Shown in pieces: positions 13,818 through 19,228 of a DNA stretch of 38,068 bases. The number at the start of each line of letters is the position of its first letter. The first letter of the stretch is position 1. This DNA comes from Elusimicrobia bacterium RIFCSPLOWO2_02_FULL_39_32 (GTDB lineage Bacteria > Elusimicrobiota > Elusimicrobia > 2-02-FULL-39-32), in contig MGUU01000023.1 in assembly GCA_001800135.1 (NCBI GenBank), positions 1 to 38,068 of the forward strand. The letters are read 5' to 3'. A model generated the notes under the pieces. That model searched no databases. It was given only the letters and a program-made list of their open reading frames with translations, and was not told where the DNA came from. The position numbers and the translations under genes were made by a program.

Positions 13818-15596
13818 ATGGCATTAGAGACTGATTCAAAATTAAAAAATCTAACTTCAGGAGCACTCCTTGAAATTCCAAAATATCAAGCAGATATTTT
13901 GGAACTGAAAAAAGAGATTGGAAAACTCGGTCAAGGAGCAATTTCTGAAGATGATTTTAAAAAATATCGCCTGCAAAGAGGAATTTACGGCCAAAAGCAA
14001 AAACCAAACATTCAAATGGTTCGGGTTAAAATCCCTTGGGGAAGACTCACCTCGGATCAAGCTTTGGTTTTAGCAGAAATTTCAGATCAATTTGCCGGAG
14101 AAGATCGGGTAGGAATCAGCCATGTGACAACCCGCCAAGACATTCAGTTCCATTTTGTAAAACTAGAAAAAATCCCTGAATGCATGTCTCGTTTGGCGGA
14201 GGCTGGCCTGACCACAAGAGAAGCCTGCGCTAATACAGTGCGCAATGTTACCGCAGATCCTCTTTCCGGAGTAGCGCAGGATGAAATTTTTGATGTTTCT
14301 CCTTACGCTGAAGCCTGCGCCAGATTTTTTTTAAGAAATCCCGTATGTCAAAACCTGCCTCGTAAATTTAAAATAGCGTTTTCTGCAAGTGTGGCTGACA
14401 GGGGACTCATCCCCATGCATGACTTAGGCTGCTTAGCAGAGATAAAAAAAATTAACGGAAAAGAAATTCGCGGGTTTAAGATCTATGTGGGGGGCGGATT
14501 AGGCTCTTATCCTAAGGTGGCTAGGACATTAGAAGATTTTACCCCGATCAGTGATTTCTTGCGAACCATCCATGCTACTATTTTTATTTTTAATCGAGAC
14601 TGGGATTATGGCAGAAAATATAGAAACATGGCCCGAATCAAATTTCTGATTGAAAAAATAGGTTTAGATGAATTTAAAAAACGAGTTCTAGAGATAAGAG
14701 AAACTCTTAAAAATAATAGTTATCCGGAAATTGAACTCTTTGAGGAATCCCAACCGCAAACTTCCACCCCGTATCTTACAGAAGCGCCGGATTCAGAATA
14801 TTTAAGGTGGAAATCTACAAATGTCATGGGTCAAAAACAAAAAGGCTATAACATTGTAACGATTAGATTGCCTTTAGGGGATATTCATTCTTCCCAACTG
14901 CGCGCGTTAGCAGAACTGGTTGAAAAATTTGGAAATGGTTACCTTTATACATCGGTTCAACAAAATCTCATTGCGCGCTGGATCAAAGATGAACTCCTCT
15001 ATACTTTTTATCAAGGTTTAAAAAGCGCTGGCATTCACCTGCCTTCAGCGGAAAGACTAGCGGATATTACCTGCTGCCCGGGAGGAGATACCTGCCAGCT
15101 AGGGATTACATCCTCAAGAGGGCTGGCTACTGCTTTAGCTAAACTTTTTAATAATGGGCTTGCCCAAGATGCGGATTTAAAAGATCTAAAAATTAAAATA
15201 TCAGGCTGTCCAAATTCCTGCGGACAGCATCATATTGCAGACATTGGATTTTACGGAGGCTCTAAAGCAGTGGGCGGCCATCAAGTGCCAACCTACACCA
15301 TGCTCTTAGGCGGGAATCTTAATCTGGAAGAGACAAAATATGCGTCACAATTTTTAAGAGTGCCTGCTAAAAAAATCCCTTTAGTTGTGGAAAAATTGCT
15401 AACTCTCTATAAACAAAATAAAAAGGAACAAGAAAAATTTAAAGAGTTTGTATCAAGAGTAGGGTTTGATTTTTTACGCCTTAATTTAGAGCCGCTCAGC
15501 GTCCTGCCAGAAACACTGGATGCACAATTCTATTCTGATTGGGGCGAACCGGGAGAATTTAAGCTCAACCTTGGCAAAGGAGAATGCGCAGCTTAA
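13818..15596 (+). CDS. Ferredoxin-type sulfite/nitrite reductase (siroheme, 4Fe-4S)
   Basis: Six-electron reduction of sulfite to sulfide (or nitrite to ammonia). 592 residues with duplicated ferredoxin-like half domains; the first shows GISHVTTRQDIQFHF and GLTTREACANTVRNVTADPLSGV. The siroheme/4Fe-4S ligands are visible as C420 and C426 (CCPGGDTC, CX5C) and C464 and C468 (GCPNSC, CX3C). Neighbours (ATP sulfurylase, ferredoxin, desulfurase) favour sulfite as substrate, but sulfite and nitrite enzymes cannot be told apart safely by eye. No APS/PAPS reductase gene is in the window to link it to CysDN. The ribosome binding site is inside a palindrome. Confidence 0.92.
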   Translation: MALETDSKLKNLTSGALLEIPKYQADILELKKEIGKLGQGAISEDDFKKYRLQRGIYGQKQKPNIQMVRVKIPWGRLTSDQALVLAEISDQFAGEDRVGISHVTTRQDIQFHFVKLEKIPECMSRLAEAGLTTREACANTVRNVTADPLSGVAQDEIFDVSPYAEACARFFLRNPVCQNLPRKFKIAFSASVADRGLIPMHDLGCLAEIKKINGKEIRGFKIYVGGGLGSYPKVARTLEDFTPISDFLRTIHATIFIFNRDWDYGRKYRNMARIKFLIEKIGLDEFKKRVLEIRETLKNNSYPEIELFEESQPQTSTPYLTEAPDSEYLRWKSTNVMGQKQKGYNIVTIRLPLGDIHSSQLRALAELVEKFGNGYLYTSVQQNLIARWIKDELLYTFYQGLKSAGIHLPSAERLADITCCPGGDTCQLGITSSRGLATALAKLFNNGLAQDADLKDLKIKISGCPNSCGQHHIADIGFYGGSKAVGGHQVPTYTMLLGGNLNLEETKYASQFLRVPAKKIPLVVEKLLTLYKQNKKEQEKFKEFVSRVGFDFLRLNLEPLSVLPETLDAQFYSDWGEPGEFKLNLGKGECAA

Positions 15597-15650
15597 TTTT
15601 TATCAGATCATGGTTGATGTAAAAAATTAATAAAGAGGTGGTGATTTAAA

Positions 15651-15830
15651 ATGGCAGAAAATTATATTGTGGTAAGTAAAATAAAAAAATTAGTAAAAGA
15701 ATCAGGGTACCGAACAGGGATGGACTATATTAATTCTCTTTCCGTTAAGGTAGAGACTATTGTGAAAGAGTCAATAGAAAAGGTTAAGGCTGCTGGAGGG
15801 AAAAAGACTCTAGGAGCTGAAGATCTTTAA
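15651..15830 (+). CDS. Bacterial histone (single histone-fold protein, Bd0055/HBb-like)
   Basis: 59-residue basic protein that I read as a histone fold. Helix 1 is about 6-18 (IVVSKIKKLVKESG), loop 1 YRTG, a long helix 2 from 24 to 48 (MDYINSLSVKVETIVKESIEKVKAAG), loop 2 GGKKT at 49-53, matching the RKT-type DNA-binding loop of archaeal histones, then a truncated helix 3 ending AEDL. Length and start (MAEN..VVSKIK) resemble the small histones of Bdellovibrio. Such proteins dimerise and bind or bend DNA. ATG 15651 is preceded by AGAGGTGGTGA, a good ribosome binding site. It stands alone between the siroheme reductase and the methyltransferase. Assignment is from pattern, not alignment. Confidence 0.82.
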   Translation: MAENYIVVSKIKKLVKESGYRTGMDYINSLSVKVETIVKESIEKVKAAGGKKTLGAEDL

Positions 15831-15896: not shown

Positions 15897-16631
15897 TTGA
15901 ACCTGCCTTCCCCTACTTCTCCAGATCCTGAAAAGGTTAAAATCCTTTTTGACGGATTAGCAGAAAGGTACGATAGCTTTAATAAAATAGCGTCGTTGGG
16001 TTTGGATCAGCTCTGGAGAAAATCCCTGATCCAACTTTTAAACCAATTTGAGCTTAAAGATAAAAAAATTCTAGACCTGGGCACTGGCACTGGGGATTTG
16101 ATCTTTGATTGTTTAAAGAATGGTTTGGGAAAAAATCATCCTGCTTTTTTAGGTATTGATCTATCCCAACCCATGTTAAATAAAGCAAAAAAGAAACTTT
16201 TATTGTATGAGTCAGAGGCATGTGTCCAATTGCTTCAGGCAAATGGAACTAGGGTTCCATGCGCTTCAAATCAAATAGACTTTGTCATCAGCGCGTTTTT
16301 ATTAAGGAACGTAAAAAAAGTGCTGAAAGAAGTTTTATTTGAAATTAAAAGGATATTAAAGCCAGAAGGAAAAATTTTTTTATTGGAACTGGTTGCCCCA
16401 GAGGGCATTTTCCTTCCTATCCTACATAAAATTTATTTAAAGACCATGTTGCCCTTAGTGGGTAAAACCATTTTTAAAAATTCTTGGTCAAAGGATTATT
16501 TGTCTGAAACAATATTGCAGTTTGGAAAGCCAGAGGATTTTTCTAAAATTTTAAAAGAAGCAAATTTTAAAGATGTATCTTATATCAGTTTAACTAAAGG
16601 AATGGCGGTCATTCATACGGCCAGTTATTAA
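15897..16631 (+). CDS. ubiE: Menaquinone/ubiquinone biosynthesis C-methyltransferase (UbiE/MenG)
   Basis: SAM-dependent methylation of the demethylquinone ring, a late step of quinone synthesis. 244 residues: VKILFDGLAERYDSFNKIASLGLDQLWRK signature at the N-terminus, SAM-binding LDLGTGTGDL near 62, then ISAFLLRNVKK (family: FGLRNV) and the C-terminal LTKGMAVIHT (family: L..G..A.H.). TTG 15897 is the only plausible start; AGGA is just ahead. It lies 3 bp before nuoA, suggesting co-expression of quinone and complex I. Confidence 0.93.
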   Translation: MNLPSPTSPDPEKVKILFDGLAERYDSFNKIASLGLDQLWRKSLIQLLNQFELKDKKILDLGTGTGDLIFDCLKNGLGKNHPAFLGIDLSQPMLNKAKKKLLLYESEACVQLLQANGTRVPCASNQIDFVISAFLLRNVKKVLKEVLFEIKRILKPEGKIFLLELVAPEGIFLPILHKIYLKTMLPLVGKTIFKNSWSKDYLSETILQFGKPEDFSKILKEANFKDVSYISLTKGMAVIHTASY

Positions 16632-16634
16632 AAA

Positions 16635-17015
16635 ATGATTTCAAATGATTTTTCCTATTTAAAAGATTATGGACAAATAGGGGTATTCCTCTTATTTGGA
16701 TTATTTTTCGCCTCATTTTCTCTTTTCCTTGCTTGGCTCTTGCGCACGCGCAATAATGATCCTCTATTCCCAACTACTTATGAATGCGGTTCTGAACCCA
16801 TAGGCAGCTCTTTTGTGCAGATGAATGTCCGCTTTTATCTATTTGCCTTGCTATTTGTGATTTTTGATGTGGAAACTCTTTTTATTTATCCTTGGGCAGT
16901 GGCTTACAAAAGTTTAGGAATCATTGGTTTCTTTGAAATGGTAATTTTTATTGCAATTCTTTTTATAGGTTTAATCTATGCTTGGAGAAAAAGCGCTCTT
17001 AAATGGGAACAATAA
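16635..17015 (+). CDS. nuoA: NADH-quinone oxidoreductase subunit A
   Basis: 126 residues, three membrane helices, with [42 protein letters not shown], the family signature region. The first gene of the 11-gene complex I operon; 3 bp after ubiE. Confidence 0.96.
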
Positions 17016-17019
17016 ATTT

Positions 17020-17559
17020 ATGAATCAAAGATTTTTAGAAAAATTGCCAGGCACAGTTTTTAATATGCCTGGGGGAAAATTAGTTATTTCCACTGTGGAT
17101 TATTTTATTAACTGGGCAAGGAAATCTTCTGTATGGCCAATGACCTTTGGCTTGGCATGCTGCGCTATAGAAATGATGGGCTCTTATGCCAGCCGTTTTG
17201 ATTTTGATCGGTTTGGAGTTATTCCCAGGCCCACTCCCAGACAATCTGACTTAATGATTATTGCCGGAACAGTGGTAAAAAAAATGGCTCCAATGATTGA
17301 GAGACTGTACCACCAAATGCCTTCTCCCAGATGGGTGATCTCCATGGGAGCTTGCGCAAACAAAGGCGGTCCTTATTATGATTCCTACTCAGTTTGTAAA
17401 GGGGTGGACAAAATTATTCCAGTGGACATTTATATCCCGGGCTGCCCGCCCAGGCCAGAAGCGCTGCAATATGGATTAATTGAGCTGCAAAAAAAGATAG
17501 AAAAAATGTCAATTCTTAAAAATATTGAACTTCCTCCCTTATCCAAAGTAAGAGACTAA
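17020..17559 (+). CDS. nuoB: NADH-quinone oxidoreductase subunit B (N2 cluster)
   Basis: Carries the last Fe-S cluster (N2) that passes electrons to quinone. 179 residues from ATG 17020 with the N2 ligands C47 and C48 (LACCAIEM), C112 (GACANKGG) and C142 (PGCPPRPEA). An upstream in-frame ATG at 16978 lies inside nuoA and is unlikely. Starts 4 bp after nuoA. Confidence 0.96.
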
Positions 17560-17566
17560 TCTAAAA

Positions 17567-18091
17567 ATGACTCCACAAGAAATATTTTCAATTATTCAAG
17601 CTCAATATAAAAATATTACAGAGATTCCTTATCCTCAAGGTCCGCATGCGGCTCCGGCGCACGAGGGTAAACCTTATAGAGATGCTCATCTCTATCTTCA
17701 GTGTCCTTCTGAACTTTGGCTTGAATTTGCAAATTTTCTGAAAAATGAGGAAAAACTTTCTTTTGATTATTTAACCTTTGTTACTGCCTTGGATTACGCT
17801 AAAATTAATCCACAAGAGCCCATCAGGATCGAGATTGTTTATCATCTTTATTCTTTTAAACATCGCCACACCCTTGTGGTTAAAATTTCTCTTAATCGAG
17901 AAAATCCGATTTTAAGTTCAGTCATTCAAGTTTGGAAAGCGAGTGATTGGCAGGAAAGAGAAGTGTATGACATGTTTGGAGTTAAATTTGAGGGCCATCC
18001 TAATTGTTCCAGAATCTTAATGTGGGAAGGGTTCCCGGGATGGCCTTTGCGCAAGGATTATGCGCATATTCCAGACAGATATGATGATTAA
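17567..18091 (+). CDS. nuoC: NADH-quinone oxidoreductase subunit C
   Basis: 174-residue peripheral-arm subunit with the 30-kDa family motif [25 protein letters not shown] and C-terminal LRKDY. Separate from nuoD, unlike the fused nuoCD of enterobacteria. Confidence 0.95.
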
Positions 18092-18097
18092 AAAAAA

Positions 18098-19228
18098 ATG
18101 AACACAGAAATTGTAAAAATTCAAGGTCAAGATTCAAAAACAGAAGAGATGATATTAAATCTTGGACCTCAGCATCCTTCTACCCATGGAGTTTTACGCG
18201 TTATCCTTAAAATGGATGGAGAAGTCATTACTTCAGCCCAGCCGGATGTAGGATACCTGCATCGCGGCACTGAAAAACTAGCTGAAAATAGAACTTATCC
18301 TCAAATGTTAGTGATTTCTGACCGTTGGGACTATCTTGCGGCTATGTCAAACAATTTAGTCTGGTCTTTAGCTGTTGAGAAACTGATGCAAATTGAGGTT
18401 CCAGCCAGAGGTCAAATTTTAAGAGTGATCATGGTAGAGCTAAATAGGATCGCCTCACACCTTGTATTTTTTGGAACCTATGGAATTGATATTGGAGCTT
18501 ACACCCCTTTTCTTTATGCCTTTAGAGAACGAGAAAAAATATTGGATCTTTTTGAAGAAGTTTCCGGCGCAAGAATGACCTATAACTATATCCGAATTGG
18601 CGGGGTCATGGCAGATTTGCCTAAAGATTGGATTGGAAGATGTCGTTCTTTTTTAGAATGGATGAAGCCTAGATTTGTAGAATACGATACACTGCTAACG
18701 GAAAACCCAATATTTCAGGATAGAACGAAAAATATTGGCATTCTTCCACAACCATTAGCAATCAGTTATGGTATTTCTGGACCGAATTTGCGCGGTAGCA
18801 GCAACCCCTTTGATTTAAGAAAAGATGCTCCTTACTGCCTTTATGATAAATTTAATTTTTCCATTCCTACAGGAAAAAATGGGGATTGCTGGGACCGCTA
18901 TTGGGTAAGAATCGAAGAGATGAAAGAATCTGTAAAAATTATTGAACAGGCTCTTGAGATGCTGCCAGAAGGAGAATGTAATGCAAAAGTGCCTAGAATT
19001 ATCCGTCCGCCTATTGGAGAGGTTTACGCGCAAATTGAAGCTCCCAGAGGGATGTTAGGGATTTATCTGGTATCTGATGGGGGAGACAAACCTTACCGTG
19101 TGCATGTAAGACCCCCTTCCTTTATAAACTTAGCTGTATTACAAGAAATTTTAGTAGGAATGAAGGTAGCAGATGTGATTGCAATTTTAGGCAGCATAGA
19201 TATTGTTTTAGGAGAGGTTGACCGCTAA
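18098..19228 (+). CDS. nuoD: NADH-quinone oxidoreductase subunit D
   Basis: 376 residues, forms the quinone pocket with NuoB. LGPQHPSTHGVLR near 22, VGYLHRGTEKLAE, and C-terminal GSIDIVLGEVDR are all present. No strong ribosome binding site; 6 bp after nuoC. Confidence 0.96.
   Translation: MNTEIVKIQGQDSKTEEMILNLGPQHPSTHGVLRVILKMDGEVITSAQPDVGYLHRGTEKLAENRTYPQMLVISDRWDYLAAMSNNLVWSLAVEKLMQIEVPARGQILRVIMVELNRIASHLVFFGTYGIDIGAYTPFLYAFREREKILDLFEEVSGARMTYNYIRIGGVMADLPKDWIGRCRSFLEWMKPRFVEYDTLLTENPIFQDRTKNIGILPQPLAISYGISGPNLRGSSNPFDLRKDAPYCLYDKFNFSIPTGKNGDCWDRYWVRIEEMKESVKIIEQALEMLPEGECNAKVPRIIRPPIGEVYAQIEAPRGMLGIYLVSDGGDKPYRVHVRPPSFINLAVLQEILVGMKVADVIAILGSIDIVLGEVDR

Follow-up and report, generated by a model that had tools for sequence, protein, structure and literature searches.

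A histone gene nearest to HBb, usually placed before the complex I genes in one class of Elusimicrobiota

The window analysed here, a 38,068-nucleotide stretch of Elusimicrobiota DNA taken as a whole, carries a gene for a 59-residue histone that profile searches identify as a homologue of HBb (Bd0055) of Bdellovibrio bacteriovorus. The reading that we favor, and regard as likely, is that of an alpha3-truncated histone, nearest to HBb, whose head-to-tail dimer would bend and compact DNA independently of sequence beside two HU/IHF-type proteins, with probable co-transcription of the gene and the nuo genes downstream. Observed in its favor are the homology itself, the predicted monomer fold, the presence of six of the ten DNA contacts of HBb, the clustering by lineage on the tree, and the gene order. 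The relevant features of the window are these:

15631..15646 (approximate limits), + strand: Shine-Dalgarno region, GAGGTGGTGATTTAAA, preceding the histone start codon
15651..15830, + strand: histone gene, 59 amino acids plus stop; alpha3-truncated histone with HBb as its closest known relative
15897..16631, + strand: gene (PF01209) for a quinone methyltransferase of the ubiE/menG type, 66 bases past the histone stop
16635..17015, + strand: nuoA (PF00507), first of the complex I run, linked to the histone at 63 of 70 loci of the class
16978..19228, + strand: nuoB, nuoC and nuoD (nuoD with PF00346 at 18488-19009; nuoB and nuoC named by eye)

The histone reading frame begins with an ATG at 15651 and runs through 59 codons to a TAA ending at 15830; its product, MAENYIVVSKIKKLVKESGYRTGMDYINSLSVKVETIVKESIEKVKAAGGKKTLGAEDL, has a computed pI of 9.26. 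A sulfite/nitrite reductase gene (PF01077, PF03460) on the same strand ends at 15596, upstream of it, and more nuo genes follow nuoB-nuoC-nuoD. The original prediction had described a 59-codon gene with a good ribosome-binding site, a GGKKT loop and an AEDL end, lying between sulfite reductase and quinone methyltransferase genes, and each of these features is found, with GAGGTGGTGATTTAAA standing before the ATG, loop and terminus both present in the protein, and the expected Pfam domains on either side. A Shine-Dalgarno-like sequence was also read by eye ahead of nearly all of the 96 homologues collected. The nearest relative, from an Elusimicrobia groundwater MAG (L001), encodes the same protein, with 4 of the 180 bases changed. 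Because all of these changes are synonymous, and because there are 96 distinct, indel-free homologues of the same 59 residues, we take the frame to be a real gene and more than a chance one.

In a phmmer search of PDB sequences the window protein matched HBb/Bd0055 at 2.1e-6 and 2.4e-6, HLp at 0.0064 and HTkC at 0.01. The profile of the 96 relatives matched HBb at 2.1e-12, HLp at 6.5e-9 and the archaeal HTkC at 1.4e-8; these were its only clear matches in the PDB, the next standing at 0.43. A single-chain AlphaFold2 prediction built on the alignment of relatives (mean pLDDT 85.5, pTM 0.61) has helices at residues 2-17 and 24-48, the second of 25 residues, and a three-residue turn at 56-58, which agrees with the helix-loop-long helix-loop-short helix order put forward originally. 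The third helix, cut to that turn, fits the 3-4 residues by which alpha3-truncated histones are recognized, and alpha3 histones lead the fold matches: in Foldseek, chains of HLp, HBb and HTkC fill the first eight rows (TM 0.75-0.80; best E 7.1e-3, none at or below 0.001), with eukaryotic and archaeal histones in the rows after them, and VIA-align gives Z of 6.2-6.8 for HLp, HBb and HTkC and at most 5.0 for the remainder. Since VIA-align warns that such Z values can belong to common arrangements, the fold result draws its weight from the match in sequence. Profile and predicted fold both point to the same three proteins, so that the histone identity proposed at the outset is upheld, as is the homology to bacterial histones expected of a profile search.

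Our own profile finds HBb; the window protein itself is recognized by neither Pfam nor NCBIfam. PF00808 (CBFD_NFYB_HMF; curated cut-off 21.4 bits) was touched by 12 of the 96 subfamily members at E values up to 10, the best being 0.004; by inference these 12 lie below the cut-off, because an E of 0.0081 went with 16.9 bits in the case of another protein, and the subfamily is mostly out of Pfam's reach. PF00808 had no match in the window's genome. Comparison of the window protein with PHROGs gave only weak matches of unknown function (best 0.021), and the phage record collection a single match at E 0.3.

The 96 distinct sequences, six of them with a GTG start, align without an indel across the 59 residues and, as judged from this alignment, form a compact subfamily of a known kind, set apart by an extra residue in loop 2 and by a lysine in place of the clamp arginine. 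Residues V7, S9, K12, K16, R21, S31, T53 and D58 are invariant in all 96, and K10, K52 and E57 are each present in 95; the DNA-facing lysines of helix 1 (K10, K12 and K16) are thus retained almost without exception. HBb, a "bacterial dimer" histone (PDB 8FVX, 8CMP, 9EZZ, 9F0E), is nearest to the window protein by sequence and shares its fold, with S9-K10, K12, K16, K52, T53 and D58 in common. Of the ten DNA contacts named for HBb in the available part of PMC11317129, the window protein keeps six unchanged (S9, K10, K12, K16, K52 and T53) and differs at four (T8, N22, S24 and R57). R57, the second strongest contact, is replaced by E57 in 95 of the 96 sequences, and R51 of the clamp has become K51 (lysine in 90, arginine in 6). 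N22 of HBb aligns with R21, as does an arginine of HTkC, and R21 may be the counterpart of the "sprocket" arginine of archaeal histones, a residue described as unconserved in bacterial ones in the portion of Hocher et al. (PMC10627809) available.

Compared with HBb, loop 1 of the window protein is one residue shorter and loop 2 one residue longer. HLp and the other histones compared share the loop 1 length, so it is HBb that has an extra residue there, and a shortening of loop 1 in the subfamily was ruled out; only the loop 2 insertion, also relative to HTkC and four other histones of the phylum, is special. The RKTxxxD motif with its clamp arginine is not matched exactly, the lysine being preceded by an extra residue, while T53 and D58 are present throughout. 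On account of the clamp lysine and the extra residue, we file the protein as an alpha3 histone nearest to the HBb group and not as a strict member; its closeness to HBb comes from a profile search of the PDB, whereas the group as published was defined by clustering in CLANS, another method.

Within the phylum the profile matches 98 of 340 genomes, 63 of the 191 of good quality, and 60 of 100 genera. One of these genomes (G180) has only a distant type and was left out, giving 97 of 340 with the window's subfamily. The subfamily is nearly always single-copy: only 4 of the 97 genomes have a second match, which is a fragment of 35 residues at the end of a contig, identical in its letters to the first copy, in one (G005) and a distant histone in the other three (G324, G164 and G173). 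The distant type, with NGRKT or NGRQT loops (L105:2998-3165, L106:2977-3171, L107:2989-3162 and L108:3004-3174), occurs in four Elusimicrobiota genomes, three of which also have the main type, and is nearer to the face-to-face pattern. By family (f1, f2 and so on being working labels, and the sizes of f4, f5 and f21 being taken from numbering ranges), the histone is absent from all 90 genomes of f4, all 77 of f20-f21 and 57 of the 59 of f5. HU/IHF proteins (PF00216) were found in 314 of the 340 genomes. The search for HU/IHF and further histones suggested with the original prediction yielded, in the window's genome, two PF00216 proteins and the one histone. Since most of the 340 genomes have no copy, the phylum as a whole does not need the histone. 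Family labels placed on a tree of 101 rows take 18 changes, against a minimum of 15 and a mean of 55 after shuffling, which points to mainly vertical descent; with only 60 columns, many open forks and f15 not forming one clade, the tree serves only as a sign of the mode of descent.

The presence of histones in this phylum is already in print, so the kind is known: Schwab et al. 2024 (PMC11390915, in excerpt) list Elusimicrobiota under the "bacterial dimer" histones, and the available part of Hocher et al. 2023 notes their persistence there. As Hocher et al. also searched by jackhmmer with eight seeds, according to that same part, they may already have found the window's subfamily. After our literature searches we regard the subfamily, its position ahead of the complex I genes, and the copy in a phage described below as new.

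The gene order was compared by counting a locus as linked when a relative of the window's NuoA lay on the same strand at most 1.4 kb downstream. Of the 97 subfamily loci, the 92 with at least 1.4 kb of downstream sequence were counted and five were dropped. Linkage was found at 63 of the 70 loci in the window's class and at none of the 22 outside it. By family it was 8/8 in f1, 1/1 in f2, 1/1 in f3, 0/2 in f5, 3/3 in f6, 4/4 in f7, 1/1 in f8, 2/2 in f9, 3/3 in f11, 1/1 in f12, 2/2 in f13, 8/8 in f14 and 29/34 in f15. The five unlinked f15 genomes (G202, G215, G218, G219 and G220; best NuoA E 6.5e-21 to 7e-19) are the only histone-bearing genomes of the class, f5 aside, without a strong NuoA, which means E below 1e-25, a limit chosen after the table was seen. 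What lies between histone and nuoA varies by family. In f1, f2, f6, f7 and f8 it is ubiE/menG, at most 200 bases from the histone; in f9 and f11-f15, at 35 loci, it is a cluster of related reading frames starting about 25 bases (median) past the histone, one member of which (L044) was checked and belongs to PF02636 (E 5e-37), a family that includes the complex I assembly factor MidA/NDUFAF7; and in a few loci, such as L011, L025, L073 and L078, nuoA itself follows after 76-173 bases. Among the 86 class genomes outside f4 and f5, 67 have both histone and strong NuoA, 5 the histone only, 2 strong NuoA only and 12 neither (Fisher 3e-9, a value uncorrected for relatedness and for incomplete genomes, which lose linked genes together).

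From gene order and spacing alone, the histone of the window's class is probably co-transcribed with the nuo genes downstream. This arrangement departs from the statement, in the text of Schwab et al. available to us, that genes for alpha3 histones resemble most NAP genes in forming single-gene operons, and it also distinguishes the class from HBb. No title among the literature matches listed, bioRxiv preprints being outside their scope, names a link between a histone and complex I. The partnership is not obligate: no locus outside the class is linked, and f5 genomes mostly have a strong NuoA match, yet only 2 of the 59 have the histone.

The upstream neighbors vary, and one representative of each was checked with Pfam. 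They include a Rex-like protein, NadC, a biotin ligase and a LUD-domain protein, with a divergent response regulator in many f15 loci. A gene for a Rex-like redox repressor stands directly upstream in some families, namely f3, f7, f8 and f25 (L046, L011, L028, L042 and L064). NadC (quinolinate phosphoribosyltransferase) is upstream in f6, f16, f18, f25 and f26, as in L080 (Pfam-checked), L099 and L104, both inside and outside the class, and this arrangement is perhaps older than the nuo linkage. A search of 97 upstream stretches for the Rex operator consensus gave best mismatch counts resembling those of one shuffle of each, so no operator is claimed. By a simple rule of our own, terminators follow the histone at 4 of the 67 linked loci and at 2 of the 30 unlinked ones, which does not separate the two groups. 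On the + strand of the window no terminator-like site lies between histone and ubiE and no promoter-like site directly before the histone; the terminator-like sites on that strand fall inside ubiE and nuoA, the total of 6 being close to that of shuffles (mean 4.2). Further upstream, between 9325 and 13396 on the same strand and ahead of the sulfite reductase gene, SufS-, SufU-, SufT/DUF59-, Mrp-, DUF971- and JAMM-like genes were recognized by eye, and the run from Suf to histone is perhaps one long transcription unit.

How such a protein would act is suggested by its homology and gene position only. A head-to-tail dimer could grip the DNA backbone through its paired loops 1 and 2 together with the lysines of the first helix, and would then bend DNA and compact the chromosome as described for HBb (PMC11317129, in excerpt); the longer loop 2 with its lysine may stand in for the Arg-Asp clamp, and the histone, lying ahead of nuo with a good ribosome-binding site, could use the operon's promoter. 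The dimer, the DNA binding and a high abundance are presumed, and the bending is carried over from HBb by analogy. An unlikely alternative is a face-to-face tetramer that wraps DNA, as in HLp of Leptospira perolatii (PDB 9QT0, 9QT1; a DNA-wrapping tetramer according to the available part of PMC12701072) and the archaeal HTkC of Thermococcus kodakarensis (PDB 9F2C). In its favor, the fold comparison ties the predicted monomer between HLp (Z 6.8), HTkC (6.6) and HBb (6.3), and its loop 1 equals that of HLp in length, one residue below HBb. The sequence, however, is nearer to HBb (2e-12, against 6.5e-9 and 1.4e-8). Moreover, the face-to-face residues R48 and N52 (PMC11390915, in excerpt), which serve the HLp tetramer, are unconserved across the 96 sequences by our own column correspondence: 91 have K and 5 have R at column 44, column 45 is mostly V, and columns 48 and 49 have N in 1 and 5. 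As for HTkC, an arginine of its loop 1 aligns with R21, and its RKT loop lacks the extra residue.

We think it quite improbable that this histone-fold protein has left chromatin to act in the service of redox control or complex I, such as by regulating the nuo operon locally. The class-wide linkage would suit such a role, as would the Rex, NadC or response regulator genes upstream in some families, but the DNA-facing lysines are retained, no Rex-like operator rises above the shuffled level, and the 22 unlinked loci outside the class together with the five histone-bearing f15 genomes that have no linked nuo set argue that the protein persists where complex I does not adjoin it. That the frame is a chance one, or encodes some unrelated small helical protein, would accord with the silence of every Pfam and NCBIfam family on the window protein; the indel-free homologues, the synonymous-only change to the nearest relative and the profile match to HBb refute it, and we give it practically no credence.

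Relatives of the histone also occur on viral contigs, three of which were found in a scan with the 96-row profile. The first (L111:3001-3180, on the 101.8 kb contig IMGVR_UViG_3300032401_001693) is a 59-residue histone of the window's subfamily ending in KKKTLGSEDL, 58% identical to that of the window (profile E 2.5e-31), and the 40 kb of its contig that were examined carry the terminase large subunit, head maturation protease and major head protein of a tailed phage. A second (L110:2953-3174), whose 45.6 kb contig encodes a tape measure protein, has a longer N-terminus and the sequence GKKMTLGAEDI. The third (L112:2959-3144, on a 196 kb contig) belongs to another type, with a GRST loop that lacks the extra residue. 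The phage histones of Schwab et al. are like these viral copies in being alpha3 folds in tailed phages, but they are described, in the available part of that paper, as having a C-terminal helical tetramer domain and no RxTxxxD, whereas the copy on the 101.8 kb contig is a plain 59-residue protein.

HBb and HLp are the only two bacterial histones studied in detail, to go by the available parts of PMC12701072 and PMC13260811. Where the contact between histone and DNA tolerates change can be read from a mostly single-copy histone that 60 of 100 genera have kept and whose clamp and loop 2 are altered. It is conceivable, though we consider it rather doubtful, that across one class of Elusimicrobiota the complex I operon has the histone as its leader gene, so that compaction of the nucleoid would track NADH respiration, and that copies in phages of these bacteria would take over or replace host chromatin. 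The position before complex I makes a link between bacterial metabolism and chromatin testable.
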